Below, piece by piece: positions 3,842 to 62,398 of a stretch of 64,000 bases of DNA (its first letter is position 1; each line of letters starts with the position of its first letter). Position numbers and translations under genes: made by a program. The notes beneath the pieces are model-generated. The model saw nothing but the letters and a program-made list of their open reading frames with translations, was not told where the DNA came from and did no database searches. This stretch comes from Clostridiales bacterium (lineage in GTDB: Bacteria > Bacillota > Clostridia > Lachnospirales > Lachnospiraceae): the NCBI GenBank assembly GCA_023663185.1, contig JAMPHY010000003.1, forward strand, positions 1 to 64,000. Reading direction: 5' to 3'.

Positions 3842-3858
3842 AAAAACACCTCCTTTAT

Positions 3859-3940: not shown

Positions 3941-3978
3941 TAATTTTCTATAACCTCATCATAAACATATGCCCTTTA

Positions 3979-11724: not shown

Positions 11725-11801
11725 CTTATGAGCCTCCACTCTTTAAATCGAATTGTATTTCTTATCTACTTTATACTCCTGCTTTTAATTCGCGATGAAA
11801 C

Positions 11802-45610: not shown

Positions 45611-45614
45611 ATTT

Positions 45615-46583: not shown

Positions 46584-46593
46584 AAATGTACCT

Positions 46594-47139
46594 CTATCTA
46601 AAATGTGGATTCCAGTTATCTTGATATTCAGTAGTCAATCTTCTTTGCCGTATAAATTTGGCAGGATTTCCCCCATATACATTGTTCGCTTCATATATCC
46701 CTTTTTTCACTACACTTCCGGCTGCTATTACTGCCTTATCATTTATCACAGTTCCGGGTAGTATAATTGCACCTGCAAAGACAGCACAATTTTTTCCTAT
46801 GCTTACTTTTTGTTCCAAATACATAAAGTCTGTTGAATCAATATCATGTGAACCAGTTATTATTTTGGAAAAGAATGCTATCGAAGTATTAGATCCTATT
46901 TCTATCCCTCCTCTTCCATCTAATAGGCATCTTTCATTAACGTATACATGGTCTCCCAATTTTATTTTCCATGGATGAATAATCTGTGTTTTCATTAAAA
47001 TCTTAGTTCCTTTACCTATTTTCATTCCAAACATCCTATAAATAACACGTCTTAGCAGCCCAATCGGAATATTACAAACAAAGTAATTTAAGAAAATGAA
47101 AATAAGTTCATCAGCCAACCCTCTAATCTTTTTAAGCAT
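46594..47139 (-). CDS. Hexapeptide-repeat acetyltransferase (LbH)
   Basis: A 181-residue left-handed beta-helix acyltransferase: 'IGKGTKILMKTQIIHPWKIK', 'LGDHVYVNERCLLDGRGG', 'IGSNTSIAFFSKIITGSHDI' (catalytic His in GSHD), 'IGKNCAVFAGAIILPGTVI' and 'VIAAGSVVKKGIYEANNVYG'. It is of the maltose/colanic acid O-acetyltransferase kind and would acetylate a sugar of the glycan. GGGAAG ahead of ATG 47139. Confidence 0.92.
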   Translation of the reverse strand: MLKKIRGLADELIFIFLNYFVCNIPIGLLRRVIYRMFGMKIGKGTKILMKTQIIHPWKIKLGDHVYVNERCLLDGRGGIEIGSNTSIAFFSKIITGSHDIDSTDFMYLEQKVSIGKNCAVFAGAIILPGTVINDKAVIAAGSVVKKGIYEANNVYGGNPAKFIRQRRLTTEYQDNWNPHFR

Positions 47140-47187
47140 ATATTTCTTCCCATCACCTTCATCAAATTTATACTTTTATTATAAATA

Positions 47188-48960
47188 TTACCTATGGTTT
47201 ATTTGAAACAGTTTATAAGTTTCGCTATCCATCACAAAGTTATATTCTTCATCCATTATAAGTTTTTGTGCAAGTTCGCTATTTATATATGTAATAATAA
47301 ATGCACCGTCCTCTATTTCATCTATCTCTTCCGGAAAAATAACATACATAGGATAATCCTTTATAAATACCTGCATACGCTGATAAAAACTACCATATTT
47401 ATATGGCTCATATATAAAATAAATTTTCTGTTGCTGCATATTTTCCACTATATAATCTGAAATATATAAGTCAGATGAAAGTTTATTATTTGTCTCGTTA
47501 ATCCGCCACAATCCTTCTTTTGCATTCAAAATAAAAGCACATAATACAATTAGGGGAATTAATATTCTTTTCAAATACACCTTCTGTAAACAAATATATA
47601 ATACAAAGCAAATTGATGTTATAATAATAAGAAAATATATTATTGAAAAGTAATTCTCATTATATTTAATCGAATATGATATTCCCGACATTCTAACCGG
47701 ATCTATCTCAATCCATTCGTTATCTACAAAATCAGTCAGCTTTTGTGATAATATCCCTGCACAGATAATAATTATATTAACTATTAATTTATTAATGATA
47801 TTTATATTATTGATCAAATAAAAAACACCCATTATTACTATTGGTAATATACAATATTCATAGTACCTGCCATAAAACATCGCTGCATAAGTTGAACCTA
47901 TACCATTTACACAACAAGCTATATACATCAGCAAAAAAACCAGGAAAAAATAGCATTTCAATATGTCTATAGCATCTGTTTTCTGAAACTTTCTTTTAAT
48001 CATCATTTTAACCTCAGATATTACATAAATGATGCCAAAAATAGCTGTTCCCACTGTAGAAACCGCAATATAAAAGAATTTTCCGATTGCGCATAAAATA
48101 TACATTTTTATGTTGCCCAAAAACCAGCCTGCCCTATCCAAAAAATAATTAATAGATAGAAGATTGCCTACTTCCCCATTATTTAATTGTGAGGCTATAT
48201 GCCCAGTATTTAATGCACTTATAAAATTTCTTTTTAAAATGTACAATAACACAAATAATAATAAAAAACTAAACATAAAGGCTATTATATTATTTTTAGA
48301 TATCCATTTCTTCCACAATGACATGAAAAAAAGAATACAGACTCCCGCAATAACTACAAGTGCCCTTGTATGAATAAAAAAAATATAGGCAGTAGTAACT
48401 CCTAATCCTAAATACCAAATTATTTTTTGTGTTTTTACCGCTTTATATAAAAAAGCAGCAATAACCAAATACCAACAATATAAAAAAACTTCACAATAAA
48501 TAAATGACGATGTATTAACAAGATATGGATAAAAACATGTAACAAAGGACACAAAAATAACTACTTTTTTTTGCTTGTCATACATTTTTGATATTAAATA
48601 AACTTGAAGCACATATATAATAACCACACATATCGAATTAACTATCATGCAGCCTCTAATCAATGATATCCCTGTTTTGCATATATAGAATAAAGGAATT
48701 AATAATAACGAATATCCATAATTGTAAAACATTGCGGAATTACTAAATACATCCTGCCAGTTAAAAGCAGAAAATTGAGACGCATTATATAAATATCCTC
48801 CTTCATCCGGCATTTGCCACATCATAGATACGAGGTTTAAAGATTTAAATAAATACAAAAACGCGATAATAACGCCTCCTGCAAATAACATTAATTTTAC
48901 GGAGATCCTATTTTCAATAAAACCTTCTCTGTGTCTTTTTGTATGCGTATTATAATTCAT
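47188..48960 (-). CDS. Large multi-membrane protein, GT-C-like
   Basis: A 590-residue integral membrane protein with about 12 helices. 'WQMPDEGGYLYNASQFSA', early and outside the membrane, fits the acidic loop of GT-C lipid-linked sugar transferases (ArnT/PMT-like). 'SAMFYNYGYSLLLIPLFYI' is nearly matched by 'NTWYSYGYGLLIYPFMKM' in the protein at 57076-58848. A soluble tail of about 100 residues follows the last helix. No function beyond membrane glycosyl or polymer handling can be claimed. AAGGA 8 bases before ATG 48960. Confidence 0.75.
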   Translation of the reverse strand: MNYNTHTKRHREGFIENRISVKLMLFAGGVIIAFLYLFKSLNLVSMMWQMPDEGGYLYNASQFSAFNWQDVFSNSAMFYNYGYSLLLIPLFYICKTGISLIRGCMIVNSICVVIIYVLQVYLISKMYDKQKKVVIFVSFVTCFYPYLVNTSSFIYCEVFLYCWYLVIAAFLYKAVKTQKIIWYLGLGVTTAYIFFIHTRALVVIAGVCILFFMSLWKKWISKNNIIAFMFSFLLLFVLLYILKRNFISALNTGHIASQLNNGEVGNLLSINYFLDRAGWFLGNIKMYILCAIGKFFYIAVSTVGTAIFGIIYVISEVKMMIKRKFQKTDAIDILKCYFFLVFLLMYIACCVNGIGSTYAAMFYGRYYEYCILPIVIMGVFYLINNINIINKLIVNIIIICAGILSQKLTDFVDNEWIEIDPVRMSGISYSIKYNENYFSIIYFLIIITSICFVLYICLQKVYLKRILIPLIVLCAFILNAKEGLWRINETNNKLSSDLYISDYIVENMQQQKIYFIYEPYKYGSFYQRMQVFIKDYPMYVIFPEEIDEIEDGAFIITYINSELAQKLIMDEEYNFVMDSETYKLFQINHR

Positions 48961-49030
48961 AAAGTAATCCTTATAATTAAAAGTATCTCAACTAGTTTTA
49001 CCATAGAAATACATTTATATTTCCAGCTGC

Positions 49031-50158
49031 CTAACAATCTTGTTCTATAACATTTTTCAAATCCGCTAAATAATTCTGAGTGCAATACTTACTCTTAAAT
49101 ATATCTCTGATATTTGAATTAAATTTTTTCATTTTATTATTAATAATATTCTCATTAATATTATTAATAAATTCATCTGCTGTATTGCATTCAAAAATGC
49201 CTTCTGTTTCATTTATATCATATCCCTCTAATGCCTCATGTGACGCAAAAATCACTTTCCCATACATAAGAGCTTCTGCTGTTTTCACCTTCATTCCTCC
49301 CCCCATAAACACAGGAATTACCACAGCATCAGCTTGAAAGTAATAATCCTTCAAATTATCTACTGTACCAATCACTTTCACATTTTCCGGTATTGATATT
49401 TTATTTCTTAACTTCTCCATATTCCTGCCAACAATATAAAGAACTGCATCAACATAACTCATTACATTCTCTATAAACCATGATAACCCTGTAATATTGT
49501 GGGCATAGTATGAACCAACATATAATAAAGAATAGGCAGCTGATTTATTATCAATGCCATCCTGTAATTGTGTTTCATCCAAGAAGTCATCAAAAGTTAT
49601 CGGTAAAATCATATCTGGGGATCTTTTATAAAACTTACTAATTAAATTAGCATCCCTACTATTTAAACAAATAATTTTATTTCCAAACTTCGCCATTTTT
49701 CTTTCATTATAGCGATTTGAAAAATATCTAAATATACATAATATACTATAACCTCTTACTTGTTCCCACGCATATTGCCGCTCAACATTGTGAAAAAAAA
49801 CAACGCTGTTTCTTCTATAAATATTACGCTTACTAATAACTTGTCCAAACGTAGAACCATCATAAAAAATCAAATCTGCATTATGTTTAAGTATACAATT
49901 GATAATCTTCCTTTCAACGCTTCTTGGAATATCTTTAAGAAAAAGATAATTAAAATATCTTTTTAATACATTATGTTTTATATTTATATATGTTACCTTT
50001 CCCTCACTGTTCTTTTCTTTTTCAGTTAAAATACATAGAAACACATTCTCTTTACCATATATTTCTGACAACATGCTATAATTTCTATATGAACATAACA
50101 GTCCACCGTCATCTTTATTATCTGAAAAATCAAACCTAGTAATAAATAATATTTTCAT
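49031..50158 (-). CDS. GT-B glycosyltransferase (family 4-like)
   Basis: A 375-residue protein beginning 'MKILFITRFDFSDNKDDGGL'. It has a C-terminal nucleotide-sugar domain with 'SLLYVGSYYAHNITGLSWFI', 'KVIGTVDNLKDYYFQADAVV' and 'VFMGGGMKVKTAEALMYGKV', the usual E-x7-E region of GT1/GT4. Start at 50158 preceded by AAGGG; a longer frame from 50185 is not used. It overlaps the end of the GT2 gene at 50136 by 23 bases. Confidence 0.88.
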   Translation of the reverse strand: MKILFITRFDFSDNKDDGGLLCSYRNYSMLSEIYGKENVFLCILTEKEKNSEGKVTYINIKHNVLKRYFNYLFLKDIPRSVERKIINCILKHNADLIFYDGSTFGQVISKRNIYRRNSVVFFHNVERQYAWEQVRGYSILCIFRYFSNRYNERKMAKFGNKIICLNSRDANLISKFYKRSPDMILPITFDDFLDETQLQDGIDNKSAAYSLLYVGSYYAHNITGLSWFIENVMSYVDAVLYIVGRNMEKLRNKISIPENVKVIGTVDNLKDYYFQADAVVIPVFMGGGMKVKTAEALMYGKVIFASHEALEGYDINETEGIFECNTADEFINNINENIINNKMKKFNSNIRDIFKSKYCTQNYLADLKNVIEQDC

Positions 50159-51002
50159 ATATACCCTTCCGCAAATTACTCTCATCTGAAATACTTACAT
50201 ATTTTTTTATATTTACTTTATAATATTTCTTCATTTTACTAAGCATTTTTTCGGGCAATATCTTTACCATTAACATTTTTATATATTGAATTGCCAATCC
50301 ATACAAAAAAACAATTTTACTACTACTTTTATATCCATGAGAAGATATCACTTTATTCTTTTCTCTATATCTAGTTACAAAATCAGTAGATGAAATGCCT
50401 GTTAACTCAAACACTGATATAATATTTTCTATCAAATAAAAATCTGTACCAGCATCATAAATATCTAAAATATTATTATAGTCAGCCGCAATTTTAAAAT
50501 TTATGTCAAAAGGAATTTTTAATAACAGTTCTTTCTTTATAAAACAACTCTGATGACAAAATGGCATTTTCTTTTTTATTAAACTAATATTTGCCTTCCA
50601 TACCATATCGTCAGACATATCACGCACTATTGCGTCTCCATACAAGACTCCTGATGAAATAAATTCCGGTTCTTTCAAAAAAACATTTTCCAAAACTTTA
50701 GAATTATAAAATGCATCCCCACTATTTATAAATATCACCCAGTTTCCAGAACAATATGAAACTGCTTGATTCATTGCATCATATATTCCTTTATCTTTCG
50801 AGCTTATTAATTTTATATTTCTCTGCGAATAAGCCTCTTTGATTTCTGATATTACATTTAAAGTTCCGTCAGTAGACATACCATCTTTTATTATGTATTC
50901 AAAGTCATTAAAAGTTTGCTGCAATACCGATTTCATGGTATGTTCAATCTTTTTATAATCATTCATCACAATAGTGACAACCGAAACTTTTATTTGTCCC
51001 AC
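50136..51002 (-). CDS. Family 2 glycosyltransferase, GTG start
   Basis: A 288-residue WcaA-like GT2: 'KVSVVTIVMNDYKKIEHTMK', 'TFNDFEYIIKDGMSTDGTLN' (the D-G-M-S-T-D-G-T segment), 'KDKGIYDAMNQAVSYCSGNW' and 'VIFINSGDAFYNSKVLENVF'. The C-terminal third is helical. The only suitable start is GTG at 51002, with GAGGTG 7 bases ahead. Substrate unknown. Confidence 0.9.
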   Translation of the reverse strand: MGQIKVSVVTIVMNDYKKIEHTMKSVLQQTFNDFEYIIKDGMSTDGTLNVISEIKEAYSQRNIKLISSKDKGIYDAMNQAVSYCSGNWVIFINSGDAFYNSKVLENVFLKEPEFISSGVLYGDAIVRDMSDDMVWKANISLIKKKMPFCHQSCFIKKELLLKIPFDINFKIAADYNNILDIYDAGTDFYLIENIISVFELTGISSTDFVTRYREKNKVISSHGYKSSSKIVFLYGLAIQYIKMLMVKILPEKMLSKMKKYYKVNIKKYVSISDESNLRKGIYENIIYY

Positions 51003-51013
51003 TTAACAACACC

Positions 51014-51694
51014 TCAACACTTAATAACTTTTTCATAAAAATAGAAATCAGACCATGACGTATTCTCTCTATCTTTACTATCATATGGAAATCTATTTGG
51101 TACTTTTTTTATCAATTCCCAATCTGGTTCATTTTTTTCAATATAATCTGTAAATTTTCTACATCTTACATGTTGTTCATGTTTTTTATCAAAATTACAT
51201 GAATAGATACAAACATATTTACTACTAGATAAAAAAAGCTGCTTCATATACTTTTCAAATATATCATCTTCTACCAAGTGATAGATAACATCTAAGGATA
51301 ATGCCAAATCATATTCCCTGCCCCCCCCAAATACATTTTGAGGTAGTTCGCCATTATTATTACAATAAAACTTCTTTGAATTATCATTTCGAAATAATGC
51401 TTTACATATTTCAACTGCTTTATGAGAAACGTCAATCCCTACATACTCTTGATACCGTGCTAGTTTTAATTGATTTCCATCACCACATCCCCACTCAATC
51501 ACTGAGTTAATACTATTCTGCTTTACAAAGTCATTAATAATCTCTGCTTTAAACAATGCTAATCTGTTATATGAACCCGCGCCAGAATCACAGCCCATAT
51601 TATATCTTCTTTCCCAATAGTCTGTACTATTTTCCCATTTATGCATCTTAAGTATAAAACGCTGAATTTTTTTAACTACATTATTTGCATTCAT
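51014..51694 (-). CDS. Class I SAM-dependent methyltransferase
   Basis: A 226-residue enzyme. 'INSVIEWGCGDGNQLKLARY' (E/D-x-G-C-G-x-G) is motif I, 'YVGIDVSHKAVEICKALFRN' the ribose-binding acid, and 'YDLALSLDVIYHLVEDDIFE' motif II/IV. It would methylate a sugar in the glycan. ATG 51694 follows GGGGGA by 7 bases; the longer TTG frame overlaps that site. Within the gene a run of eight G (minus strand, near 51321-51328) codes for Gly-Gly-Gly just before 'REYDLALS'. Confidence 0.9.
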   Translation of the reverse strand: MNANNVVKKIQRFILKMHKWENSTDYWERRYNMGCDSGAGSYNRLALFKAEIINDFVKQNSINSVIEWGCGDGNQLKLARYQEYVGIDVSHKAVEICKALFRNDNSKKFYCNNNGELPQNVFGGGREYDLALSLDVIYHLVEDDIFEKYMKQLFLSSSKYVCIYSCNFDKKHEQHVRCRKFTDYIEKNEPDWELIKKVPNRFPYDSKDRENTSWSDFYFYEKVIKC

Positions 51695-51755
51695 TTTGTC
51701 TTCCCCCAACCTAAAATTAATTAAATGTTTACAAACACCATAAAACCGATTCTAC

Positions 51756-52826
51756 CTACATGTCTATATCATTCCAAATTAGAGTTTTATATTTTTCCGC
51801 AACCGCCTTCCCTGTACACTCTGTTTTTACATATTCTTGTGCTGTTGCTTTTATATTACGATAATTATCATAGTGATTTATAATATCATTCAATAAATCA
51901 GCTAAATCCTTTACAGACTCCGGTTCATACAAAATTCCACTAATACCGTCTTTGACAGCATCCGATATCCCCTGCATATTGGCGGCAACAACTAGGCAGC
52001 CCGCTGCCGCTGCCTCAACAGCTACCATTCCATATCCTTCTACATCATTTTCCACATAAATATTAGGCATAAGAAAAATATCCGAATGCGCATATAAATC
52101 TGCTAATTCTTGCTCTGTTACCCTTCCCAGCAAGTTTACCCGATTATCATGTGTATTGTTTATAGCTTCTTGTATAGGGCTTTCCATATATCCACTTCCT
52201 GCAACCAGATAAACAAGTTTAGAATAATTTATTTTGGGCAGCACGTTATAAATAAACCATTCAACACCTTTACGCTTTACTAATCTCCCAACTGTACAAA
52301 TCACAAAAGTATCTTTCGGCAAACCGTACTTTTGGTAAAATTCTTTTTTCGTACAAATATGTGTATCGTTTATATTATTATTTATCGTTGCAGGCGGAAT
52401 TACATGGCATGGGTGATATCCATTTTTTTCTGCCACGCTTCTTGTATAAGAACTATTTGGCACATAGGCATCAAAATCATGTGAAAATAATCTCAAATAT
52501 ATCTGGTATATTGGATTGGAATAAGTAATGTCCAAGCCATGTATTGTGACAATAACCTTAACTTTTCGGTTAATTTTCTTTGCCAGCCAGCCTATTCCGC
52601 ATAACAACATATCACCTAACTGAATAACATCAAATTTTCGTGCATTAAATAATACATATATCAGGCAATATGGATAAAACCAAAGTAAATGTATCTGTTT
52701 CTTGCCCAATGCTTTAAGTACATAGTCTCCATCATAATTTGATATCAAGTTGTAACTATATGATTCCATTCCACCCTTCATTGGAGGATATTTTCTGGTT
52801 ATAAAAAGAACCGTCCTTGAATCCAT
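51756..52826 (-). CDS. Family 4 glycosyltransferase
   Basis: A 356-residue GT-B enzyme: 'VLFITRKYPPMKGGMESYSY' (the G-G-M/I-E acceptor loop), 'VIVTIHGLDITYSNPIYQIY', 'TFVICTVGRLVKRKGVEWFI' (R and K for the nucleotide), and 'EGYGMVAVEAAAAGCLVVAA' (E-x7-E). All parts are present. It is the first gene of the low-GC block in the direction of transcription, about 160 bases after the terminator at 52911-52954. Confidence 0.93.
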   Translation of the reverse strand: MDSRTVLFITRKYPPMKGGMESYSYNLISNYDGDYVLKALGKKQIHLLWFYPYCLIYVLFNARKFDVIQLGDMLLCGIGWLAKKINRKVKVIVTIHGLDITYSNPIYQIYLRLFSHDFDAYVPNSSYTRSVAEKNGYHPCHVIPPATINNNINDTHICTKKEFYQKYGLPKDTFVICTVGRLVKRKGVEWFIYNVLPKINYSKLVYLVAGSGYMESPIQEAINNTHDNRVNLLGRVTEQELADLYAHSDIFLMPNIYVENDVEGYGMVAVEAAAAGCLVVAANMQGISDAVKDGISGILYEPESVKDLADLLNDIINHYDNYRNIKATAQEYVKTECTGKAVAEKYKTLIWNDIDM

Positions 52827-52910
52827 AAATATCTATCGCCTGCCTAAAATTAATATATTTTTATATGTAGCATTTCGCCAATCTATATTTACAAATTATG
52901 TTTTCATAAA

Positions 52911-52954
52911 AAACTCCCAACATAAGACAATTCCATATCTTACATTGGGAGTTT
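52911..52954 (-). terminator. Strong terminator after the coiled-coil gene
   Basis: AAACTCCCAA and its complement form a 10-bp perfect outer stem with an inner partial stem (GTAAGATA and TCTTATG); on the minus strand a run of T residues follows. Confidence 0.85.
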
Positions 52955-52989
52955 ATCATTTTATCCTGCTATTCTATTTCTGCTTATTT

Positions 52990-53325
52990 TTATACGGATA
53001 GATTCATCAGTTCCTGACTATGTCTAGTAACAGTGGTGTTTAAATTATTAATGTCTATTCTCATTTCACCTATAAGGCCCATAGTATCCTTGTAACGATT
53101 TTCTGTTCTATCATAGTTCTTCATTACAGTGTCTACCAGTTGCACTACACTGTTGTATTTCGCATCCACTTCTATACTATGCAAGCGTGGAAAAATATTG
53201 TTATCAATTATGTTTACCCTGACAAACTCTATATCCTTTTCCAGCTTATCCAGCCGTTTATAAACCGGCTCCAGCTTCTCTTCCATCAAATCTGATATTT
53301 CTGTCAACATTTCTTTGTCTATCAT
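52990..53325 (-). CDS. Coiled-coil protein, paralogue 1
   Basis: A 111-residue protein starting 'MIDKEMLTEISDLMEEKLEP', then 'VYKRLDKLEKDIEFVRVNII' and ending 'NTTVTRHSQELMNLSV'. It is helical all through with heptad-like Leu/Ile spacing. It is a clear paralogue of the gene at 53504-53899. No membrane or DNA-binding part. Proteins like this occur in several copies in Lachnospiraceae and have no known role. Start: AAGGAGGACGAG ahead of ATG 53325. Confidence 0.75.
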   Translation of the reverse strand: MIDKEMLTEISDLMEEKLEPVYKRLDKLEKDIEFVRVNIIDNNIFPRLHSIEVDAKYNSVVQLVDTVMKNYDRTENRYKDTMGLIGEMRIDINNLNTTVTRHSQELMNLSV

Positions 53326-53403
53326 TTTCTCGTCCTCCTTTATCGTGTGCAGTTCTAAGATTCCTCTTTCTGACTGCATGTGTTATTAGTGATTTCATGT
53401 TTT

Positions 53404-53432
53404 ACTTTATCACAACCCAAAAGAAAACGCAA
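53404..53432 (-). promoter_or_regulatory. Candidate promoter of coiled-coil paralogue 1
   Basis: Minus strand TTGCGT, 17-base spacer, TAAAGT. The same -35 and spacing are found ahead of paralogue 2. Confidence 0.6.
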
Positions 53433-53503
53433 TGATATTTTTTCAAAAACGCTTTTTCGTTTATTATCATTTTATCCTGCTATTATATCTCTACCTATCT
53501 TTC

Positions 53504-53899
53504 TTATACCGATATTTTATTCAACATCTCGCTGTGTCTCGTGACAGTAATGTTTAAAATATCAATATCACTTTTCATCTGTTCTATATCTTCCGAACTA
53601 TGCAGAAACTTATCAGAAGCAGGCACATAACATCCTTCTATCGTCTTAAGACGCGGTATTACATCGTTTTCTAGCTGCACTACTCTTACATACTTCATGT
53701 CGTTTTCCAGCTTATCCAGCCGTTTGTAAATTGGCGTCAGTTTTTTTTCAAACTTGCTTTCCAATTTCTCTTCCAGTTTGCTTTCCAGCTTGCTTTCCAT
53801 TTTCTCTTCCAGTTTACTTTCCAGCTTGCTTTCCAGCTTACTTTCCAGTTTCTCTTCCAGCAAATCCGATATTGCTGTCAACATTTCTTTGTCTACCAT
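53504..53899 (-). CDS. Coiled-coil protein, paralogue 2, with KLES tandem repeats
   Basis: A 131-residue helical protein. It starts 'MVDKEMLTAISDLLEEKLES' and then holds about nine units of four residues of the type KLES/KLEE (12-bp DNA repeats, about 53750-53855). It continues 'PIYKRLDKLENDMKYVRVVQ' and ends 'ITVTRHSEMLNKISV'. Paralogue 1 has just one such unit at the same place, so the difference is a tandem expansion. ATG 53899 has AAGGAGGACG ahead; a frame from 54016 is not used. Role unknown. Confidence 0.75.
   Translation of the reverse strand: MVDKEMLTAISDLLEEKLESKLESKLESKLEEKMESKLESKLEEKLESKFEKKLTPIYKRLDKLENDMKYVRVVQLENDVIPRLKTIEGCYVPASDKFLHSSEDIEQMKSDIDILNITVTRHSEMLNKISV
53750..53855. 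repeat. 12-bp tandem repeats in coiled-coil paralogue 2
   Basis: About nine imperfect copies of a 12-bp unit of the form CTTGCTTTCCAG (plus strand). In frame, each adds four residues and more than half a heptad of helix. The number of copies is likely to vary among strains. Confidence 0.8.
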
Positions 53900-54010
53900 T
53901 CTTTCGTCCTCCTTGAGTGTGTACAGTCGGAAGGAATCCTCTTTCCGCCTGCATATATTATTAGTGTCATGAATCTTGGCGAAAAGCCGGACACCGAAAT
54001 ATTCGGTGCA

Positions 54011-54043
54011 TCGCACATATAGATGTTAGAATATATTGTGCGA
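54011..54043. other. Hairpin in the leader of coiled-coil paralogue 2
   Basis: TCGCACA and TGTGCGA form a 7-bp stem with an AT-rich loop. No T-run follows, so it is not a standard terminator. Confidence 0.4.
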
Positions 54044-54062
54044 GAACAGATTTCATGCTTTT

Positions 54063-54091
54063 ACTCTATCACACTTTAAGGAGAAACGCAA
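54063..54091 (-). promoter_or_regulatory. Candidate promoter of coiled-coil paralogue 2
   Basis: Minus strand TTGCGT, 17-base spacer, TAGAGT. It matches the promoter of paralogue 1, showing that the upstream region was duplicated with the gene. Confidence 0.6.
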
Positions 54092-54184
54092 GTATAAATT
54101 TTAAAAAACGTTTTTTAGTTTATTATCACTTTTCCGCTATCCAATGTAAGATATAAAATTGTCAAGGTACATTTTTAAAGCCTT

Positions 54185-55168
54185 TTATGTTCTGGCTGCC
54201 TCTTTTTCAATCTTCTTCTGCATATAAATTGCTTCATATTCAGAACGTCTGGCATGATACTGTGTATCCTGTAGCAGTTTTCTGTTAGCCGCTATGACAT
54301 CCGCCATCAAACCTATCATAAAGGTCAAAAATCCTATGATAATCAAAGTACAGCCTAAAATCAGCGACTGTACGTGTCCGCTTGCGGAACCATGCGCCAT
54401 ATAATACAAAAATCTAAATCCTATCATAAGTCCGGTAAACATAGGCACTCCTGCCAGATACGTAAAGCACTTAAGCGGCTTGTACATCATATAGGCGCGT
54501 AAGATAGTCAGCATGCTTTTTTTAACATAGCCTATGATACTGTTAAAAAGCCTTGATGGTCTAAGTTCGGCGTTAGTGCGTATAGGCACGCTTGTAATCG
54601 CCATTTTTTCCCGCCCTGCCTGCACTATGGTTTCAAGCGTATATGTATAATCATTTACCACATTAATGTGCATTGCCGCTTCCCTGCTCATAGCGCGGAA
54701 ACCGCTTGGTGCATCGGGAATATCCGTATTTGAAGCTTTTCTTACTACCCAGCTTCCAAAATGCTGCAATTTTTTCTTAATATATGAAAAATGTTCAGTA
54801 TCATCAATAGGTCTTGCCCCGATTACCATATCTGCCTTTCCTTCCAAAATCGGCTTAATTAGTTTCTGAATATCCTCACCACAGTATTGATTGTCAGCGT
54901 CGGTATTGACGATAATATCCGCACCGTTTCTAAGGCAGCCGTCCAGTCCGGCCATAAATCCTTTGGCAAGCCCCTTATTCTGCTTAAAATTTACAATATG
55001 GTGCACGCCCCAATTTCTAGCAACTTCCACCGTGTTATCCTGACTTCCATCATTTATAATCAGATATTCAATTTCGTCTACTCCATCTAGTTCTTTGGGC
55101 AAATCGTTTAAGGCAATCTCCAACGTTTCCGCCTCGTTATAACATGGTATCTGGATAATAAGCTTCAT
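54185..55168 (-). CDS. Polyprenyl-phosphate-type glycosyltransferase (GT2, membrane)
   Basis: A 327-residue DPMS/GtrB-like GT2 enzyme. 'LIIQIPCYNEAETLEIALND' and 'EYLIINDGSQDNTVEVARNW' open the domain, 'GADIIVNTDADNQYCGEDIQ' has the D-A-D metal site, and 'DAPSGFRAMSREAAMHINVV' the acceptor loop. Two membrane helices lie at about 235-255 ('FTYLAGVPMFTGLMIGFRFL') and 270-292. It would place a sugar on undecaprenyl phosphate. AAGGAG about 12 bases ahead of ATG 55168. Confidence 0.92.
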   Translation of the reverse strand: MKLIIQIPCYNEAETLEIALNDLPKELDGVDEIEYLIINDGSQDNTVEVARNWGVHHIVNFKQNKGLAKGFMAGLDGCLRNGADIIVNTDADNQYCGEDIQKLIKPILEGKADMVIGARPIDDTEHFSYIKKKLQHFGSWVVRKASNTDIPDAPSGFRAMSREAAMHINVVNDYTYTLETIVQAGREKMAITSVPIRTNAELRPSRLFNSIIGYVKKSMLTILRAYMMYKPLKCFTYLAGVPMFTGLMIGFRFLYYMAHGSASGHVQSLILGCTLIIIGFLTFMIGLMADVIAANRKLLQDTQYHARRSEYEAIYMQKKIEKEAART

Positions 55169-55203
55169 AATGCTGCCATGTCTCCTTCCCGAAATTGAAA
55201 ATA

Positions 55204-56049
55204 TTAGTCATCGTCCAAATCCATTATTTCAATATCTTCTTCACCAATATCATACACGTTATCTTCATCAACTTCCTCTTCCCCAATATCATAGGATTTA
55301 TCCTCATCTGTTTCCTCTTCATCATTATCATAGGACATATCTTCCTCAGCTCCCTCTTCATCAATGTCATATGATATATATTCATCTATCCCCTCTTCAT
55401 CAATATCATAGGATTTATCTTCGCCATCTTCCCCTTCATTGTCATCAGGCTTCTTATAATCCTTTATTATCTGTATAATGGCGTAAACAACTATAACGAC
55501 AACCAGCGTCACTATAATTAATATGGAGAAAATATTCGTCTGTTTATCAGTCTGCCCCTCTTGTATACCAGCATCTTCGTTATCTGCTTCTATTGATGTT
55601 TCATCATTATCATTTAGCTGATTATCTGTATCTTCCTGTGCAGTTTCCGCCGTATCAGTTAATTCAAGCGGCTCCGGCTCCGGTTCTGAGGCAATCCAAA
55701 TATCCATATTTTCAAATACTGCCAGAAAATCTCCTCTTATATATCCGGTTTCACCTAAATATACTACTCTGTACCAGCCCTCGTCGGTCAGCTCGACCGC
55801 AAAGATATGCTCACCCGCCGCAAGCTTTCCCATGATTTCTGATGATGTATTCGGTTCCTTTCTTACATTTACTTCTTTAACCGCATACATCATGGTTGTA
55901 GTCGAAATCTCTACTCCGGTAACAGTTGAAGCTTCTCCTTGCGCCGGCGTCTGTTCTGCCGCTACCGTTCTTATGCCGCAAATATATACAATAGATAAAA
56001 GCATTGCCAGAGATAATATTTTTTTAAAACGACCTGTAGCTAATTTCAT
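55204..56049 (-). CDS. Envelope SH3-domain protein with acidic repeat tail
   Basis: A 281-residue protein. Signal peptide at 1-31 ('FKKILSLAMLLSIVYICGI', then AAEQ). An SH3b domain at about 55-112: 'VKEVNVRKEPNTSSEIMGKL', 'GWYRVVYLGETGYIRGDFLA', the wall-binding type. An acidic spacer follows. A membrane helix at about 172-194 ('IFSILIIVTLVVVIVVYAII'), then a cytoplasmic tail with about six repeats of 12-14 residues of form 'SYDIDEEGIDEYI'. The tail is almost all Asp and Glu. It may tie the cell wall to a basic cytoplasmic partner. It overlaps the stop of the gene before by 4 bases (ATGA). Confidence 0.8.
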   Translation of the reverse strand: MKLATGRFKKILSLAMLLSIVYICGIRTVAAEQTPAQGEASTVTGVEISTTTMMYAVKEVNVRKEPNTSSEIMGKLAAGEHIFAVELTDEGWYRVVYLGETGYIRGDFLAVFENMDIWIASEPEPEPLELTDTAETAQEDTDNQLNDNDETSIEADNEDAGIQEGQTDKQTNIFSILIIVTLVVVIVVYAIIQIIKDYKKPDDNEGEDGEDKSYDIDEEGIDEYISYDIDEEGAEEDMSYDNDEEETDEDKSYDIGEEEVDEDNVYDIGEEDIEIMDLDDD

Positions 56050-57089
56050 CTTTCCATCTTTTCCTTCCTGCCATTGTCTATATTGCTTATATAATTTCTA
56101 CTATTTCCACATAAGGCTATCGCCAGCAGCACTATATAAATCGGCGCTGTTACAAACTGTATACTGAAAAAAAGCGACTGTATAAGATACATGATAAATA
56201 ATACAACAAAAAGGGAGTTTACCCTTTTCCCACATATCTGTTTCTGCATTTTCTTTATTGCGGCAACAACTATACAGATAAGTACTGCACCGCCAGCCAT
56301 TCCAAACCGTGCCATTACATCATAAAAAGTTCCGTTATGCCCTGTGGCATATCCTCTTAGTTCTGCTGAAAACTGCGTTAATACTGCTATTCCTTTTCCA
56401 CCATCTATACTTTCAAGTCTGTTTCCCATAGTTAAAAGCAGAAAAAGTATAATGCCTGTCCCCGCAAGAATCCATTTAACAGCATTCCGGAATTCATGCA
56501 GCAGTCTGTCTTCGTCTTGCGAAAGCCTGTCCCAAAAACTGAAAAATAACACTCCTGCTGAGGCTATAATAAGGTCCAGATAGACTCCGTTTTCCAGACT
56601 ATATCTACACTCGACCAAGATAAGCGTAGTATAATTTATAATAAGAGACATGTTGCTAAGCATAAAGAAATACACAAACGCCATCTGCATAATTCTTTTC
56701 ACATATTCTTTTTGCGGCTCATACACAAGCAGGAACAGCATAAAGCCTATCCCCATTAGTACAATGCTTATTACATTCTCATTTATAAACAAAAGAAAAT
56801 ATCCCACTAACGCAATGATTAAATAAAGCTTCTGCTTCGTATCATCTTTTGCGTCACAATATTTTCCTGTTGCTATCACATTAAAAAGCAGTAAAAATGA
56901 AGCCAGCGCCTGCTCATTTTCAATAAGCGTAAATAACATAAATGAATATGCGACGTCCACCATAAAATGCCATAGCAGCCCCACATACACTATAAATGCG
57001 TATATAAGACTTATATCCAGCAGATAAGCCGTTATTTTTCGCGTTCTCTTCCCTTTACTTCTTGTTTTCTTCTTTTTAATCAAATTCAT
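56046..57089 (-). CDS. O-antigen polymerase-like (Wzy) membrane protein
   Basis: A 347-residue protein with about 10 hydrophobic helices. A basic N-terminus ('MNLIKKKKTRSKGKRTRK') precedes helix 1. A periplasmic loop near residue 250-275 reads 'LRGYATGHNGTFYDVMARFG', with the H-N-x-F/Y segment typical of the Wzy/WaaL group, followed by the helix 'MAGGAVLICIVVAAI'. I call it polymerase-like, not certain. The start is uncertain: ATG 57089 overlaps the gene before by 14 bases; a longer frame from 57167 also exists, and neither has a strong ribosome site. Confidence 0.7.
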   Translation of the reverse strand: MNLIKKKKTRSKGKRTRKITAYLLDISLIYAFIVYVGLLWHFMVDVAYSFMLFTLIENEQALASFLLLFNVIATGKYCDAKDDTKQKLYLIIALVGYFLLFINENVISIVLMGIGFMLFLLVYEPQKEYVKRIMQMAFVYFFMLSNMSLIINYTTLILVECRYSLENGVYLDLIIASAGVLFFSFWDRLSQDEDRLLHEFRNAVKWILAGTGIILFLLLTMGNRLESIDGGKGIAVLTQFSAELRGYATGHNGTFYDVMARFGMAGGAVLICIVVAAIKKMQKQICGKRVNSLFVVLFIMYLIQSLFFSIQFVTAPIYIVLLAIALCGNSRNYISNIDNGRKEKMER

Positions 57090-58848
57090 TGTAGTAGATT
57101 CTGTAATGTGGCGATTCCAAAACATTTGTATAATATATAGACAATTCTCTCTCCATTTCATCTCCATTTTGTGTTATCACAAACAAATCTGCGTCCGCGC
57201 TGCGTATCTTATCTTTAGAACATATCTTTAGCGAAATATCATTCAGCATATATTGCGCCAGATATGCCGTCATTTCATTATCATCATATAAATAAAGCGC
57301 TTTATCTTCTTTTCTTAAGTCAATCATCTGTCTAACCTGACTAAGAAGCTGCATATCTTCCTTCTGCGAAGCATTGGCGTCAAAAATATAGTTTTTATTC
57401 GTATATAATGTCAAAACAAGCTGTAAAAGACAAATGCCGGATAGAAGTCCCCTTCGCTTCTTTCCGCCGTCAGTCAGCCATGCAATGCCAAGTATCAAAA
57501 TACCACCAATTTCTCCGGCAATACAGGCGTAAAAAACCGCCCATTTAGAATATCCGTCTGCAAAATCCAGCGCATACAATATACCCATTACAGAATCCCT
57601 ATTGAAATATATTATGCTTCCAGTATCAATCAGACTGTATACCAAAAACATAAGCAGATTCGATAACACTAAAAGTTGTAACAGACGCTTTTTTATTGCA
57701 GGCTTCTTAAGAAGACCCGCTATCCCAAACGCTATGATAAGCGGTATGGTATTTTCATGATATCTTCCATATAATATACCATCCAGTCTGTTTCCCCTAA
57801 GCCAGTAAATTGACGATATTACAATCGCTGATATATGTGAAAGCAGACACCAGACAAAAAAACAATCTTTCCATGAAGAGTTTTTCTTTTTTATAAGGCA
57901 TATCAGAAATTCTTCCACTTTCTTAAACAAAAACGCCATTCCCCAGTAGTACAATCCAAAGCTTGCGCAGCCAAGATAAAGAATCTTGCCTGCAAGTCCT
58001 GTTAGAAATTGATATATGCCTTCAAACGAACACAAAAACTTAAGTTTTTCCCACTGTCCTGAATAGTCGTTTACTGACGTCATTTTTCCATACTGTTCCG
58101 ACGATATAATATTTATTGCCCTTTCTTTGAGTACTCCTGCCAAAAAAATCAATGCAACGGTAAGCGCCGCTATTGATAGAACAATTAATACGGTTTTTCG
58201 CACATTTTTTCTTTCTGTCTTAAATAGCGCCGCCATAAACATACACGCAACCGCTGCCAGAAAAATCCCTATTGTGCGCATATGTACCGTATACATATAC
58301 CACGAAGCCAGGATAACCAGAAGCCCGCTCCATAATTCCTGATATTTAAACCATCTATACAGTCCATACGCCGTAAGCAGATATAAAAAAGTAAGCAATA
58401 CCTCCGGAATAGTCGTCTGCGCATATGTGATATAAGAGACATAGCAGATGGAAGAACCGCTGATAAAAGCGGCAATCCCTGTCTTCATATCGGTAAATAT
58501 CAACATAAGCAGCTTATATACAATAAGTATACATATTCCCAATAATATGAAATTGACTGCAACCATGCACCTGTATGCTATAAGCGGATTGGAAAACATT
58601 TTCATAAACGGATAAATAAGCAGTCCATAACCATAAGAATACCATGTATTTAAAGACACAGTCTCTTTCCAGTCCATGCCTGCCATATCCGCCGCATGCG
58701 CCCAATAGCCGAATTCCATTTTCACCATTGTTGCAGGACCGTAAATTTTCGGTAGAACTGCCAGCATAATACCAAGCAGCAGGCAAAAGAAGCTTCCTAA
58801 TATCAAATATGGCGTTTTTTTCTTTTGAAATTTCTCATGTACTTTCAT
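57076..58848 (-). CDS. Large multi-membrane protein, GT-C-like, paralogue of 47188-48960
   Basis: A 590-residue integral membrane protein with about 11 helices and a C-terminal soluble tail of about 100 residues. 'VKMEFGYWAHAADMAGMDW' is an early outside loop, and 'NTWYSYGYGLLIYPFMKMFS' matches 'NYGYSLLLIPLFYI' in the other copy. The tail ends 'YYTNVLESPHYRIYYNEFD'. It is of the same size and plan as the other copy but much diverged. Start ATG 58848 is preferred to GTG 58863; no strong ribosome site is seen at either. Membrane glycosyltransferase role inferred only. Confidence 0.75.
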   Translation of the reverse strand: MKVHEKFQKKKTPYLILGSFFCLLLGIMLAVLPKIYGPATMVKMEFGYWAHAADMAGMDWKETVSLNTWYSYGYGLLIYPFMKMFSNPLIAYRCMVAVNFILLGICILIVYKLLMLIFTDMKTGIAAFISGSSICYVSYITYAQTTIPEVLLTFLYLLTAYGLYRWFKYQELWSGLLVILASWYMYTVHMRTIGIFLAAVACMFMAALFKTERKNVRKTVLIVLSIAALTVALIFLAGVLKERAINIISSEQYGKMTSVNDYSGQWEKLKFLCSFEGIYQFLTGLAGKILYLGCASFGLYYWGMAFLFKKVEEFLICLIKKKNSSWKDCFFVWCLLSHISAIVISSIYWLRGNRLDGILYGRYHENTIPLIIAFGIAGLLKKPAIKKRLLQLLVLSNLLMFLVYSLIDTGSIIYFNRDSVMGILYALDFADGYSKWAVFYACIAGEIGGILILGIAWLTDGGKKRRGLLSGICLLQLVLTLYTNKNYIFDANASQKEDMQLLSQVRQMIDLRKEDKALYLYDDNEMTAYLAQYMLNDISLKICSKDKIRSADADLFVITQNGDEMERELSIYYTNVLESPHYRIYYNEFD

Positions 58849-58877
58849 ACTGTACGCCGTCACAAGACTTACAGGAA

Positions 58878-58926: not shown

Positions 58927-59679
58927 CTATCTGTATTTGTCAAAGCTTCCGGTAGGCGCTTTTACGAGAACGTAAACGCCAAATCCTTTGGAATTAACAG
59001 CAACTACATTAGGATCAGCTGATAAATTAGGCAGAATGCTGACTCTTCCGCCTTCCTGAATAAGCAATACTGCATAGTCGCAGCCTGCCTGTCTGAAAGA
59101 TGCGGGTAAACCTACAGCAATACCGAGCGGTTGATTTAAGTCAATCACTTTTTTGCCATTCAGGAATGCGTTAAGGTCAAGCTCAGGACCTTTAACTGCT
59201 GCCACATTATCTGCAGCCAATACAGCCATTCCATAATTGATGCTGACTGTCGCAGCCGGGCCATGCTTGGAATCTACTGCATCCATTCTGACAGAACCGA
59301 TGCTTGACGCGCCAAATGCCGTAAGTACATCCGCTGTCGGTGTCACTACTGCAACGCCGTCTACTGATTTTGCATTGTAAACACCGTTTACCGTAGAAAC
59401 CAGTTTAGCTCCTGTTGATGTAACTACTGCTTTGCTTGTCAATGCCACACTCGCAGCAGCTGTAGAGCCTGTGCTCTCAGATGAGCTTGAACTAGAGCTT
59501 GATGACGTACTTGCTATTGAGTTTGACGATACGCTTGGTGTTAAACTGTGTACATTATGCACATTAGCTTTAGCAGCCTGACTTCCTGCACTAGCGTTTG
59601 CAGCTAAAGCGGGCGTTGCCACCAACATAGCGGTCATGGCAAATACACCGATGTTCTTAAGAACCTTCTTACTAACCAT
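58927..59679 (-). CDS. Secreted Ser-rich protein next to the recombinase
   Basis: A 250-residue exported protein. Signal peptide at 1-27 ('VLKNIGVFAMTAMLVATPA', cut after ALA). A Ser run of about 20 residues lies at about 50-75, a flexible linker. The C-terminal part (about 80-250) is a beta-rich domain: 'TVSINYGMAVLAADNVAAVK', 'NAFLNGKKVIDLNQPLGIAV', 'YAVLLIQEGGRVSILPNLSA' and 'KGFGVYVLVKAPTGSF'. I do not know its function; similar proteins occur near exopolysaccharide genes, as I recall. AAGGAGG 9 bases before ATG 59679. The upstream 100 bases reach the left inverted repeat of the recombinase segment; no good promoter was found there. Confidence 0.8.
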   Translation of the reverse strand: MVSKKVLKNIGVFAMTAMLVATPALAANASAGSQAAKANVHNVHSLTPSVSSNSIASTSSSSSSSSSESTGSTAAASVALTSKAVVTSTGAKLVSTVNGVYNAKSVDGVAVVTPTADVLTAFGASSIGSVRMDAVDSKHGPAATVSINYGMAVLAADNVAAVKGPELDLNAFLNGKKVIDLNQPLGIAVGLPASFRQAGCDYAVLLIQEGGRVSILPNLSADPNVVAVNSKGFGVYVLVKAPTGSFDKYR

Positions 59680-59779
59680 TTCTTTTTACCTCCTTATTAA
59701 ATTTATATATAACGGAGACAAAATCTCCAATATATATACATTTACCGTTTTCCATACATTACCGGTATTGGTTAATATG

Positions 59780-59811
59780 TTTCGTGAAATATATACATTT
59801 ATGAAATGTAT
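59780..59811. repeat. Left inverted repeat, recombinase core site
   Basis: A 32-bp sequence that recurs inverted at 61226-61257 with one mismatch. It can be read as arms TTTCGTGAAA and ATTTATGAAA (the second a near inverted match of the first) around the spacer TATATAC. This is the form of a tyrosine-recombinase crossover site. Confidence 0.85.
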
Positions 59812-59856
59812 GTGAAGCTTATGAAGCTTACGGCGTGTAATCAAACTGTCATGTCA

Positions 59857-59886
59857 TGACCACTATTTTGACGGCTTAAATTTTAT
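59857..59886. repeat. Direct repeat D, copy 1
   Basis: TGACCACTATTTTGACGGCT followed by an AT-rich tail, at the 3' end of the recombinase gene. It matches 61013-61042 in 18 of the first 20 bases. It could be an accessory binding site of the recombinase. Confidence 0.65.
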
Positions 59887-60994
59887 GCACATCAAATACT
59901 TTATTCATTAACACCCGTTTTTGATTTATGGTTGAATGCACATACAGATTCAGCGTAATCTGTATATTAGCATGTCCAAGTATTTCGCTTAAGCTCTTTA
60001 TATCTACCCCTTCTCTGATACACAGGCTGGCAAAATAATGACGCAGCATATGGAATTTAAAATGTTCTATACCGCATTTTTTGAGGATTGCTGCAAATCG
60101 ATATTGCAATGTCCTTGTTTCCGCCCATTCCTTCCTTTTTCCTACTATTAAATAGTCTGTATCCGCTTTTCTGTTTTCCTTTAAAATCTTCATAAGAATA
60201 TCGGGAATGGGAATCCTTCGCGCAGAAGTAACAGTCTTAGGCTCTTGTACCTTTATTGTCGTAGCGGCTGTTTCTACGTCAAATTTCTTTATCCTCTGCA
60301 TATTTTTATCAATTTTTAACACACCTTCCATAAAATCTATATCTCCCCATTTCAATGCGCACAACTCTCCAATACGTATTCCGGTATAGAATGCAGTCAA
60401 AATTCCTATACATGTTGAATCATCTGTATGCGAATATAAATATTTCGTCAGTTTCTTCATAGTATCGTCCGATGGAAGTTCCTGACATTTAGTACAGCTT
60501 GATATTTTTTTATTCACAAGAACCGGAAGATTATAGTTATATTCTGCGGAAACATATGAAAATGCCTGTCTGAAAATCCCGCCTATATTACGCGCATATG
60601 AGGCGGAAATCTTTGAACCGTCACTTATTTTTCTGATACTGCCAAGATACTCATTATAAGCGGCATTGCTAAAACTTTCAGCCTTCTGCATGGCTATATC
60701 GTTTCTCATATAAAGTTTGATAAGCTGTTTATAACATGCGCATGTTGATTCCTTCCATACATACCTTTTATCATTTATCCAAATATTTACGACCTGGGCT
60801 ATTGTAAATGTGCATTTCCCGATATTGCTTTCTTGTTCTGACATCAAATCCATCATTTTTTCCTTGCATTCTCTATAAGTGCTTCCATATACGGAACGAT
60901 ATTTTTTAATTCCGGATTTCACAACAGTCTGGCGTATGCGCCCTTCCCACCTTCCGTCCTTTCTTTTATATATATTTAAACCTCTTTTTGACAT
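59876..60994 (-). CDS. Tyrosine recombinase between inverted repeats
   Basis: A 372-residue integrase-family enzyme. The N-terminal arm ('LNIYKRKDGRWEGRIRQ') resembles the arm-binding domain of Tn916-type integrases, and a core-binding helical domain follows (about 60-160). The catalytic domain has Arg in 'FYTGIRIGELCALKWGDIDF', H-x-x-R in 'FKFHMLRHYFASLCIREGVD', G-H in 'LSEILGHANIQITLNLY', and the final Tyr in that segment, so all catalytic residues are present. AGGAGG 7 bases before ATG 60994. There are no phage or conjugation genes nearby and no tRNA, so it is not part of a visible prophage or ICE. The flanking inverted sites suggest an invertase. Confidence 0.93.
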   Translation of the reverse strand: MSKRGLNIYKRKDGRWEGRIRQTVVKSGIKKYRSVYGSTYRECKEKMMDLMSEQESNIGKCTFTIAQVVNIWINDKRYVWKESTCACYKQLIKLYMRNDIAMQKAESFSNAAYNEYLGSIRKISDGSKISASYARNIGGIFRQAFSYVSAEYNYNLPVLVNKKISSCTKCQELPSDDTMKKLTKYLYSHTDDSTCIGILTAFYTGIRIGELCALKWGDIDFMEGVLKIDKNMQRIKKFDVETAATTIKVQEPKTVTSARRIPIPDILMKILKENRKADTDYLIVGKRKEWAETRTLQYRFAAILKKCGIEHFKFHMLRHYFASLCIREGVDIKSLSEILGHANIQITLNLYVHSTINQKRVLMNKVFDVHKI

Positions 60995-61012
60995 AATTTT
61001 ACCTCCTAAATC

Positions 61013-61042
61013 TGACCAGTTTTTTGACGGCTATAAATTTAT
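61013..61042. repeat. Direct repeat D, copy 2
   Basis: TGACCAGTTTTTTGACGGCT plus AT-rich tail, just ahead of the recombinase ribosome site. Partner of 59857-59886 in the same orientation. Confidence 0.65.
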
Positions 61043-61153
61043 AATTGTTAGTTGTTATCCGTCTTCCGTTCTTATTTTACAACATTTTGTTGTGTCGCAA
61101 TGTTCTGCTATCCGCTTATAGCAAATTTTCATCAATTTTTTTATAAAAAAGTA

Positions 61154-61182
61154 TTGTAATACGGAACGCAAGATGGTATTAT
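61154..61182 (+). promoter_or_regulatory. Outward-facing promoter inside the invertible segment
   Basis: TTGTAA, 17-base spacer, TATTAT (4 of 6 and 5 of 6 consensus bases). It points away from the recombinase, through the right inverted repeat, to a terminator. After inversion it would point at the secreted-protein gene. Confidence 0.6.
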
Positions 61183-61225
61183 ATCTTAAGATTGAGTTGT
61201 TGTATAAAGTTGTTTCGGATAGAAA

Positions 61226-61257
61226 ATACATTTCATAAATGTATATATTTTACGAAA
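61226..61257. repeat. Right inverted repeat, recombinase core site
   Basis: Inverted copy of 59780-59811, with 31 of 32 bases identical. The 7-bp spacer TATATAC is the same in both when read in the matching direction. Confidence 0.85.
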
Positions 61258-61288: not shown

Positions 61289-61325
61289 AAGACCGTTTGA
61301 AGTAATCACCACTCCAAACGGTCTT
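61289..61325 (-). terminator. Terminator of the LacI-family gene
   Basis: AAGACCGTTTG and CAAACGGTCTT form an 11-bp perfect stem with a 15-base loop; on the minus strand five T residues follow. It also stands in the path of the outward promoter at 61154-61182. Confidence 0.85.
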
Positions 61326-61375: not shown

Positions 61376-62398
61376 CTACTCACGCACCGTCCCCACCGAC
61401 TGTCCGGGCGACACTTTACCCTGCACGCGAATCCTTTTAGGCTCGGACGCCTTAGGGTGTTCGATAAGCAGGACTATGTTCTGCGCAATCGCCTCACCCA
61501 TCTTGTCTAAATCCTGCTCAAGTGTAGTCAGTTCAGGCGTAACCGCCTTTGAGAGCGGTATTCCGTCATAGCCCGCTACTGATATGTCGTCTGGGATTAC
61601 AAGCTTTCTTTCATATATCTCCCCGATTCCGCCCAGCGCAGAAAAATCATTCGGATATAAAATACAGGTAGGCGGATTAGGCAAATCCAAAAGCTCTGCC
61701 GTCAGGCTCTTTGCTTTGCGGAAATTCAGGTATTCTCCCTCTTTCACATATTCGTCCGGCACTGTGAGCCCAAACTCTGCCATTGTGGTATAGAAGCTGT
61801 CCACGCGCTCTTTCGTAACACTGTAAGTATGGGCTCCTTCTCCATGTATATATGCGATTTTCTTATGCCCTTTCGCATGGATATATGTGAGCAAATCCTT
61901 AATTCCCTCTGCGTAGTCATAACATACGGACGTCTTTTTTTCAAAAACGCAGTCTACTGTCACTAGCGGAAAATCACTCTCAATCAGCTCAATTATCTCC
62001 GGATCTTCGCGCTCCGTATACGCCATCACTATTCCGTCCACATCACGATACCTGCAATGCTCTAAATAGGTCATGTTATGATTTCCAATTCTTTTATTGA
62101 TAAAGATAATTTCATATCCCCTTTTTTCCACTGATTTTTTCAGGGAATTGATTATCTTTGGGAAAAATTCGTCCGTCAGTCCTGTGCCTTCTTCATCGCC
62201 AATCAATACGCCGATACTGTAACTGTGCTTCGAGCGCAGCGCCCTTGCCGTAGCGCTTGGAAGATATCCCATCTCGTCTGCGATTTTCCGGATTCTTATT
62301 TTAGTCTCTTCGCCGATATCGGACTTTCCATTCAGCGCCTTACTGACGGTAGCAACAGATACCCCGCAGCTTTTTGCCACTTCTTTTATTGAAACCAT
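61376..62398 (-). CDS. LacI-family transcription regulator
   Basis: A 340-residue regulator. The N-terminal helix-turn-helix 'MVSIKEVAKSCGVSVATVSK' and hinge helix 'SATARALRSKHSYSIGVLIG' are intact. The ligand domain (about 60-335) contains 'KGHKKIAYIHGEGAHTYSVT', 'PTCILYPNDFSALGGIGEIY' and 'ISVAGYDGIPLSKAVTPELT'. It should bind an operator under control of a sugar or other small effector. AGGATAG ahead of ATG 62398. It lies 53 bases after purA, on the same strand. Target genes cannot be told from this window. Confidence 0.95.
   Translation of the reverse strand: MVSIKEVAKSCGVSVATVSKALNGKSDIGEETKIRIRKIADEMGYLPSATARALRSKHSYSIGVLIGDEEGTGLTDEFFPKIINSLKKSVEKRGYEIIFINKRIGNHNMTYLEHCRYRDVDGIVMAYTEREDPEIIELIESDFPLVTVDCVFEKKTSVCYDYAEGIKDLLTYIHAKGHKKIAYIHGEGAHTYSVTKERVDSFYTTMAEFGLTVPDEYVKEGEYLNFRKAKSLTAELLDLPNPPTCILYPNDFSALGGIGEIYERKLVIPDDISVAGYDGIPLSKAVTPELTTLEQDLDKMGEAIAQNIVLLIEHPKASEPKRIRVQGKVSPGQSVGTVRE

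Follow-up and report, generated by a model that had tools for sequence, protein, structure and literature searches.

A probable invertible promoter cassette with its own integrase-type tyrosine recombinase beside glycan genes of a Lachnospiraceae bacterium

The segment at positions 59780-61257 of the window, the whole 64,000-nucleotide stretch of DNA analyzed here, is in our assessment a self-contained invertible promoter cassette (probability of roughly 80%), in which an integrase-type tyrosine recombinase would control an operon made of a secreted-protein gene and glycan genes. In the proposed mechanism, the recombinase would act on the 7-bp spacers of two inverted repeats, where strand exchange would flip the whole segment, the recombinase gene included. 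The promoter on the start-codon side of the recombinase gene would point outward and, as sequenced, away from the operon, which would be the OFF state. After inversion its -10 box would lie, by arithmetic, at about 59855-59860 on the minus strand, leaving some 175 nt to the start codon of the secreted-protein gene (59679), and the promoter would then drive this gene and the glycan genes behind it (ON). Comparison of related sequences supports flipping in relatives; in the source strain the segment presumably flips, its promoter is presumably transcribed, and the two arm-like motifs that flank the recombinase gene presumably take part. The coordinates of all features are given in Table 1.

Table 1. 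Features of the putative cassette and its surroundings in the window
Feature	Positions	Strand	Remarks
Co-directional glycan genes behind the first target	41720-58863	-	family scans
First target, 250-aa predicted secreted protein	58927-59679	-	without known family
Left inverted repeat	59780-59811	+	C-terminal side of the recombinase; crossover site TTCGTGAAA-TATATAC-ATTTATGAA plus 5 nt
Hybrid promoter TTCACA-17-TATATT	59816-59788	-	spans the C-side repeat
Arm-like motif GCCGTCAAAATAGTGGTCA	59857-59875	-	directly after the recombinase stop codon
Tyrosine recombinase, 372 aa	59876-60994	-	ORF scan, PF00589
Arm-like motif GCCGTCAAAAAACTGGTCA	61013-61031	-	before the recombinase ribosome-binding site
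Outward sigma-70-like promoter TTGTAA-17-TATTAT	61154-61182	+	TG before the -10; points away from the operon as sequenced
Candidate recombinase promoter TATACA-17-TATAAT	61178-61206	-	shares its -10 region with the outward promoter
Right inverted repeat	61226-61257	-	start-codon side of the recombinase
Terminator-like hairpin	61289-61325	-	closes the lacI-type gene 61376-62398

The segment measures 1,478 bp and is bounded by 32-nt inverted repeats that are 97% complementary. Their sole mismatch is located in an outer arm, and the TATATAC spacer is identical in the left and right copies. A pattern search that allowed up to three mismatches hit just the two repeat positions in the window and nothing in the 100 shuffles used as background, and a BLAST-type search of the bacterium's own genome returned no further copy. 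The 7-bp spacer was read by eye, the script having picked a 5-nt register; in the 7-bp register the arms match the family consensus at 6 of 9 positions in the left copy and at 7 of 9 in the right copy. Within the segment, the recombinase gene is the single ORF of at least 100 aa. These data agree with the original prediction in its description of two 32-bp inverted repeats with one mismatch, of a spacer common to both, and of one complete tyrosine recombinase between them. Comparison with the segment of genome G007 revealed 37 differences, none of which falls in either repeat, and the 27-nt repeat core is unchanged in both G007 and G064. In the comparison with G064, the repeat core and an arm-like motif are kept where the surrounding DNA differs. 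A partly repeat-like sequence at 59732-59744 was considered as a third crossover copy and rejected; only its AT run is kept in G064. Separately, the window contains a 25-nt inverted pair (I2, 58576-58600 and 61099-61123, 88%), present in G007 too, with one arm within a polymerase-like gene and the other in the regulatory gap of the cassette.

The recombinase matches PF00589 with an E-value of 2.8e-30. The residues R207, K253, H315, R318, H341, and Y351, which we take to be the catalytic R, K, H-x-x-R, H, and Y of tyrosine recombinases, are invariant in both family alignments. The AlphaFold2 model (pLDDT 88.3) displays an N-terminal beta-beta-beta-alpha domain, and its best match in the PDB is Tn1549 Int (E 2.1e-16; construct of residues 82-397 according to the structure title), with lambda Int lower down. 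Phage and plasmid integrases are also among the relatives of the recombinase. An enzyme so similar to integrases would also fit a small mobile element, or an integrase remnant, whose inverted-repeat ends arose by chance. The ends of an integrated element would, however, be direct repeats, whereas those found here are inverted. Furthermore, the segment encloses no cargo, no second copy was found in its own genome, and related cassettes neighbor one and the same target gene in several species. We consider an origin of this kind very improbable, and the invertible cassette remains by far the preferred reading.

The paired motif CGTCA-N6-TGGTC occurs on one strand at both sides of the recombinase gene of the window. 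Across the family we searched for [CG]GTCA-N4-8-[CG]GT[CA], a definition made after inspection of the sequences. On the coding strand, 37 of 70 loci have this motif ahead of the start codon and 26 of 70 have it in the gap that separates the stop codon from the repeat, as against 0 and 0 of 70 on the reverse strand and 15 of 854 control windows. The same bias was seen in a further set of loci described below (10/16 before the gene and 7/16 after it; 0 and 0 on the reverse strand). G064 keeps the motif after the stop codon with one change, and the bases between this motif and the repeat core are altered. Arm-type sites are known for the Tn916/Tn1549 and lambda integrases. The paired motifs are probably arm sites of the recombinase, which would serve to build the recombination complex or in autoregulation. 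Since the N-terminal beta-beta-beta-alpha domain alone gave no significant match in the PDB, and since the profile matches of the recombinase start at residue 65 or beyond, we infer this role rather than observe it.

The arrangement recurs in related genomes. Among 77 genomes of the genus (own included), 38 carry a relative of the recombinase at E 1e-40 or better, in 51 places; these and three weaker ones form a genus set of 54 loci. Together with the best 80 named loci this made 134 loci, the window included, of which 132 have distinct recombinase DNA. With a single fixed threshold, the recombinase lies between inverted repeats in 83 of the 134 loci (39/54 genus loci and 44/80 named loci, two of them from Enterococcus), as compared to 3 of 348 placements when displaced positions in the same loci were used as a control. 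The 51 loci without repeats include 13 near a contig end and 11 with a repeat just below the threshold. Most segments are 1.3-1.6 kb long, the extremes being 1.2 and 2.9 kb; the half-site consensus is approximately TTCGYARAA, and the spacer has 7 nt in 55 of 83 loci. In a wider sample from the taxonomic family of the host, 43 of 299 genomes (own included) contain a relative at E 1e-50 or better. Two loci have an unusual layout. In L135, two tandem crossover-like repeat copies lie on each side of the recombinase (3366-4463), within a 73-nt inverted repeat. The genome G075 carries two cassettes (L212 and L213) whose recombinases and repeats are identical, each located ahead of a 460-aa gene; the pair suggests that the cassette can be duplicated and represents either a recent duplication or an assembly duplicate.

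The outward promoter of the window scores 9 of 12, with a mean of 8.57 in its own shuffles, and its -10 lies 43 nt from the repeat. Nine promoter-like sites were counted in the region and 8.6 (sd 2.7) in shuffles, so that the promoter of the window taken alone is no evidence and the case rests on comparison. Thus, the outward promoter with good boxes put forward in the original prediction is at chance level in the window, and it is the family comparison that sustains it. The same prediction had this promoter face a terminator, which was not confirmed: the hairpin beyond the right repeat has a terminator score on the minus strand alone. There it would end transcription of the lacI-type gene ahead of the segment and thereby insulate the segment. 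The outward and the candidate recombinase promoters have one -10 region in common (61177-61183), read on opposite strands, so that transcription from the two could be mutually exclusive. The candidate recombinase promoter is tentative because inward promoters are barely above shuffles across the family (8.57 versus 8.31 in 83 loci, p 0.016).

Across the family, each locus was scored by its best outward sigma-70 match, out of 12, between the repeat and the recombinase start codon, against a dinucleotide-shuffle background. In this start-codon gap the outward promoters of the 83 loci reached a mean of 10.50, versus 8.35 in shuffles (p 4.5e-15); 80 of 83 exceed the mean of their own shuffles, 57 score at least 10, and 25 have the exact TTGACA-N17-TATAAT. 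In the 43 loci with a score of 11 or more, the -10 and the repeat are separated by a median of 53 nt. In the wider clade of the window, 6 of 15 loci score at least 10. Scores elsewhere, each versus shuffles, were 5.56 versus 5.97 in the gap on the C side (42 loci), 7.80 versus 7.54 at the C junction (p 0.008), 8.14 versus 8.01 in the C flank (p 0.04), and 8.07 versus 7.88 in the N flank (p 0.15). We also assembled 29 further loci from other genera, 16 of which have repeats; 11 of these 16 have outward promoters of at least 10, and their mean is 10.45 versus 8.52 in shuffles (p 3e-5). This set is a partial hold-out, as L321 has the same repeat as L123.

The sequenced orientation could instead be the ON state if the target were expressed by read-through out of the recombinase gene or by the hybrid promoter; inversion would then turn the target off. 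The recombinase and the target are indeed co-directional, and no terminator was found between them inside the segment. The hybrid promoter matches 10/12 in the window, and the C-side junction scores 10.1, each above the outward promoter; the slight excess at C junctions and the commonest orientation in assemblies, in which a gene leads away from the segment on the C side only in 52 of 83 loci and on the N side only in 10 (both sides in 14, neither in 7), point the same way. However, the -35 of the hybrid promoter is altered in G007 (TTCACA to CTCACA) and missing in G064, and C junctions reach at least 10 in 5 of 82 loci with no exact match, far from the record of the outward promoter. We regard an ON state as sequenced as unlikely.

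Evidence for flipping came from targets that have an orthologue in another locus. By this criterion 36 loci were labelled by hand, of which 31 are OFF-facing and 5 ON-facing, with 5 changes on the recombinase tree. In the five (L060, L061, L070, L052, and L065), orthologous targets lie at the opposite end of the segment from that seen in relatives. The segments of L057 and L060 are 80% identical, and the C flank of one matches the N flank of the other. The same flank swap was found for L061 versus L053 and L057, and for L070 versus L058 (two long pieces, 85% and 89%), L052 and L065 being weaker cases. L070, whose recombinase contains stop codons, had been classed as 'neither' by gene direction and was relabelled by orthology. 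L088, L090, L096, and L123, which are ON by gene direction, were left out of the 36 as they are without an orthologous target. For L198 and L063, ON labels given by gene direction were dropped: L198 is collinear with L045, and the 854-aa target family of L063 is on the C side. In each opposite-orientation pair only one flank is conserved, while both are in two same-orientation pairs; a rearrangement other than a simple inversion is therefore possible. Moreover, the contig of L080 opens with 35 nt from the flank on its C side in inverted form, and these run into the repeat and then the N end of the segment. This is the junction expected of the inverted form and supports flipping, although it may be an assembly artefact.

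For the target of the window itself, all eight loci (the window, L042, L047-L050, L203, and G064) have their promoter side away from the target; no ON copy was found among them, and G007 has the same orientation as the window. The sequenced state is thus most likely OFF, as had been proposed. Since only OFF-facing copies occur among the window and its seven closest loci, we infer flipping in the source strain from the relatives. The proposal that a promoter switch operates here is supported by the recurrence of repeat-flanked recombinases over the displaced control, the family promoter, the occurrence of both orientations, and the L080 junction. The search for the opposite orientation in related genomes, which the original prediction had called for, gave five cases among the 36 labelled loci and none among the eight loci of the window's target.

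The uniform orientation of these eight loci, together with the weak promoter of the window (9/12) and stop codons in the recombinases of the relatives G064, L051, and L070, would also suit an ancestral switch that became locked in the lineage of the window. In G064 the stop is in frame near the contig start, and the recombinase is 77% identical to that of the window over residues 81-370. Against a relic, the window has an intact recombinase, with 98% identity to that of G007, none of the 37 differences that separate the two segments touches a repeat, and the repeat core is kept in G064. A locked relic is hence quite improbable, and we retain the view of a cassette that probably still inverts.

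The predicted secreted protein, the gene of which starts 100 bp from the segment on the C-terminal side of the recombinase, had no Pfam or NCBIfam family; its orthologues adjoin the cassette in L042, L047-L050, L203, and G064. The genes behind it encode glycosyltransferases, a methyltransferase, a hexapeptide transferase, PIG-L and Stealth proteins, several members without a family, and one repeat-unit polymerase match that lies below cut-off. Together they presumably form one operon. On the other side of the segment, the lacI-type gene reads toward it. The leader of the secreted-protein gene (59680-59779, minus strand) contains a long hairpin directly before the ribosome-binding site (z -2.97; none of 200 shuffles was equally good). 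In G064, 16 of its 20 pairs are kept, with no two-sided changes. Post-initiation control by this hairpin is possible.

In relatives, 17 flanking proteins chosen by eye were scanned for families. They comprise CpsB/CapC, a Wzz/AAA chain-length protein, LytR-CpsA-Psr, a glycosyltransferase, a LytTR response regulator, a Trans_reg_C regulator followed by a MucBP protein (Enterococcus), a BspA-type leucine-rich-repeat protein, an FHA protein, a helicase, and a second integrase; no family was assigned to another three, and two gave matches below cut-off only. Beside the switch of L145, the gene at 11445-12284 encodes a second, different tyrosine recombinase (PF00589). Its homologue lies on the N side of L154, so that the two are on opposite cassette sides. 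In one subfamily of 12 loci the target is TnpB/Cas12f-like, with PF07282 in the two that were scanned. The gene lies at L053:7699-9039 and L060:6970-8367, with homologues in L052, L056-L059, L061, L065, L067, L103, and L121. Acidic residues at what we take to be the RuvC motifs appear to be lost: GID is replaced by GIR, GIH, or GIL, the E motif by YLPKL, and the last D by E or K. Glycan-type genes follow the TnpB-like gene in L057 and L058. Judged from its sequence, this target is perhaps a phase-variable, TldR-like RNA-guided regulator heading a glycan operon.

Switches of related design are known. The invertible H segment of Salmonella contains an outward promoter, and in the window, too, the recombinase gene and the outward promoter both lie within the segment that would flip. 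The gene of the Salmonella recombinase, Hin, lies inside the H segment (PMC5903667). Hin belongs to the serine recombinases and works with an enhancer bound by Fis (PMC3798978, PMC11868660), unlike the window enzyme, which is a PF00589 tyrosine recombinase with arm-like motifs. PMC5903667 also describes a putative invertible segment at fimbrial genes of Providencia stuartii; it resembles the window's in enclosing a recombinase ORF within a small segment beside surface genes, but differs in its proteobacterial host, its length of 844 bp, and its 14-bp imperfect repeats. The same paper reports that RecV of C. difficile is a tyrosine recombinase that inverts short segments before surface genes (cwpV, flgB); it acts on several switches elsewhere in the genome, whereas the recombinase of the window sits inside its own segment. 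In a section of a 2025 survey (PMC11892184), inverton group 139 (32/33 Clostridia) is listed with a nearby tyrosine-type recombinase, invertase group 35, and this section does not state that the gene is inside the segment. Judged by this description, these groups may be the same family as the cassettes studied here.

In fold, the recombinase of the window is like the Tn916/Tn1549 and lambda integrases. These, however, integrate and excise elements, whereas the sites in the window are inverted and no element is carried. Among the matches listed in the open-access PMC literature, no recognizable description of the cassette family, of its arm-like motifs, or of its promoter side was found. Self-contained invertible segments are already known in principle from Hin and Providencia; the cassette of the window would work like Hin but is built on a tyrosine recombinase of the integrase type.

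A broader reading is that the cassettes form a distinct class of autonomous phase switches, widespread in Clostridia, in which an arm-site integrase of the lambda/Tn916 type has been domesticated into an invertase. The invertase would be carried by the very segment that it flips. Through the arm sites on either side of its gene, one direction of inversion would be favored (the majority of assemblies face OFF), and the arm site next to the start codon would allow autorepression by the enzyme. Taken with directional bias and self-repression, we hold this proposal as tentative, short of an even chance. If true, members of the class would control EPS genes, LytTR regulators, and nuclease-dead-looking TnpB-like proteins that head glycan operons.

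The familiar examples of phase variation come from Bacteroides, enterics, and C. difficile. Our data point to commensal Clostridia as hosts of a sizeable family of switches of the self-contained type. As the sequence itself shows where the crossover sites, the promoter, and the target are, existing metagenomes could be used to call whether surface-glycan operons are ON or OFF. The cassette would moreover be a case of inversion by an integrase that has arm-like sites, which raises a testable question, namely how such an enzyme is kept to flipping.
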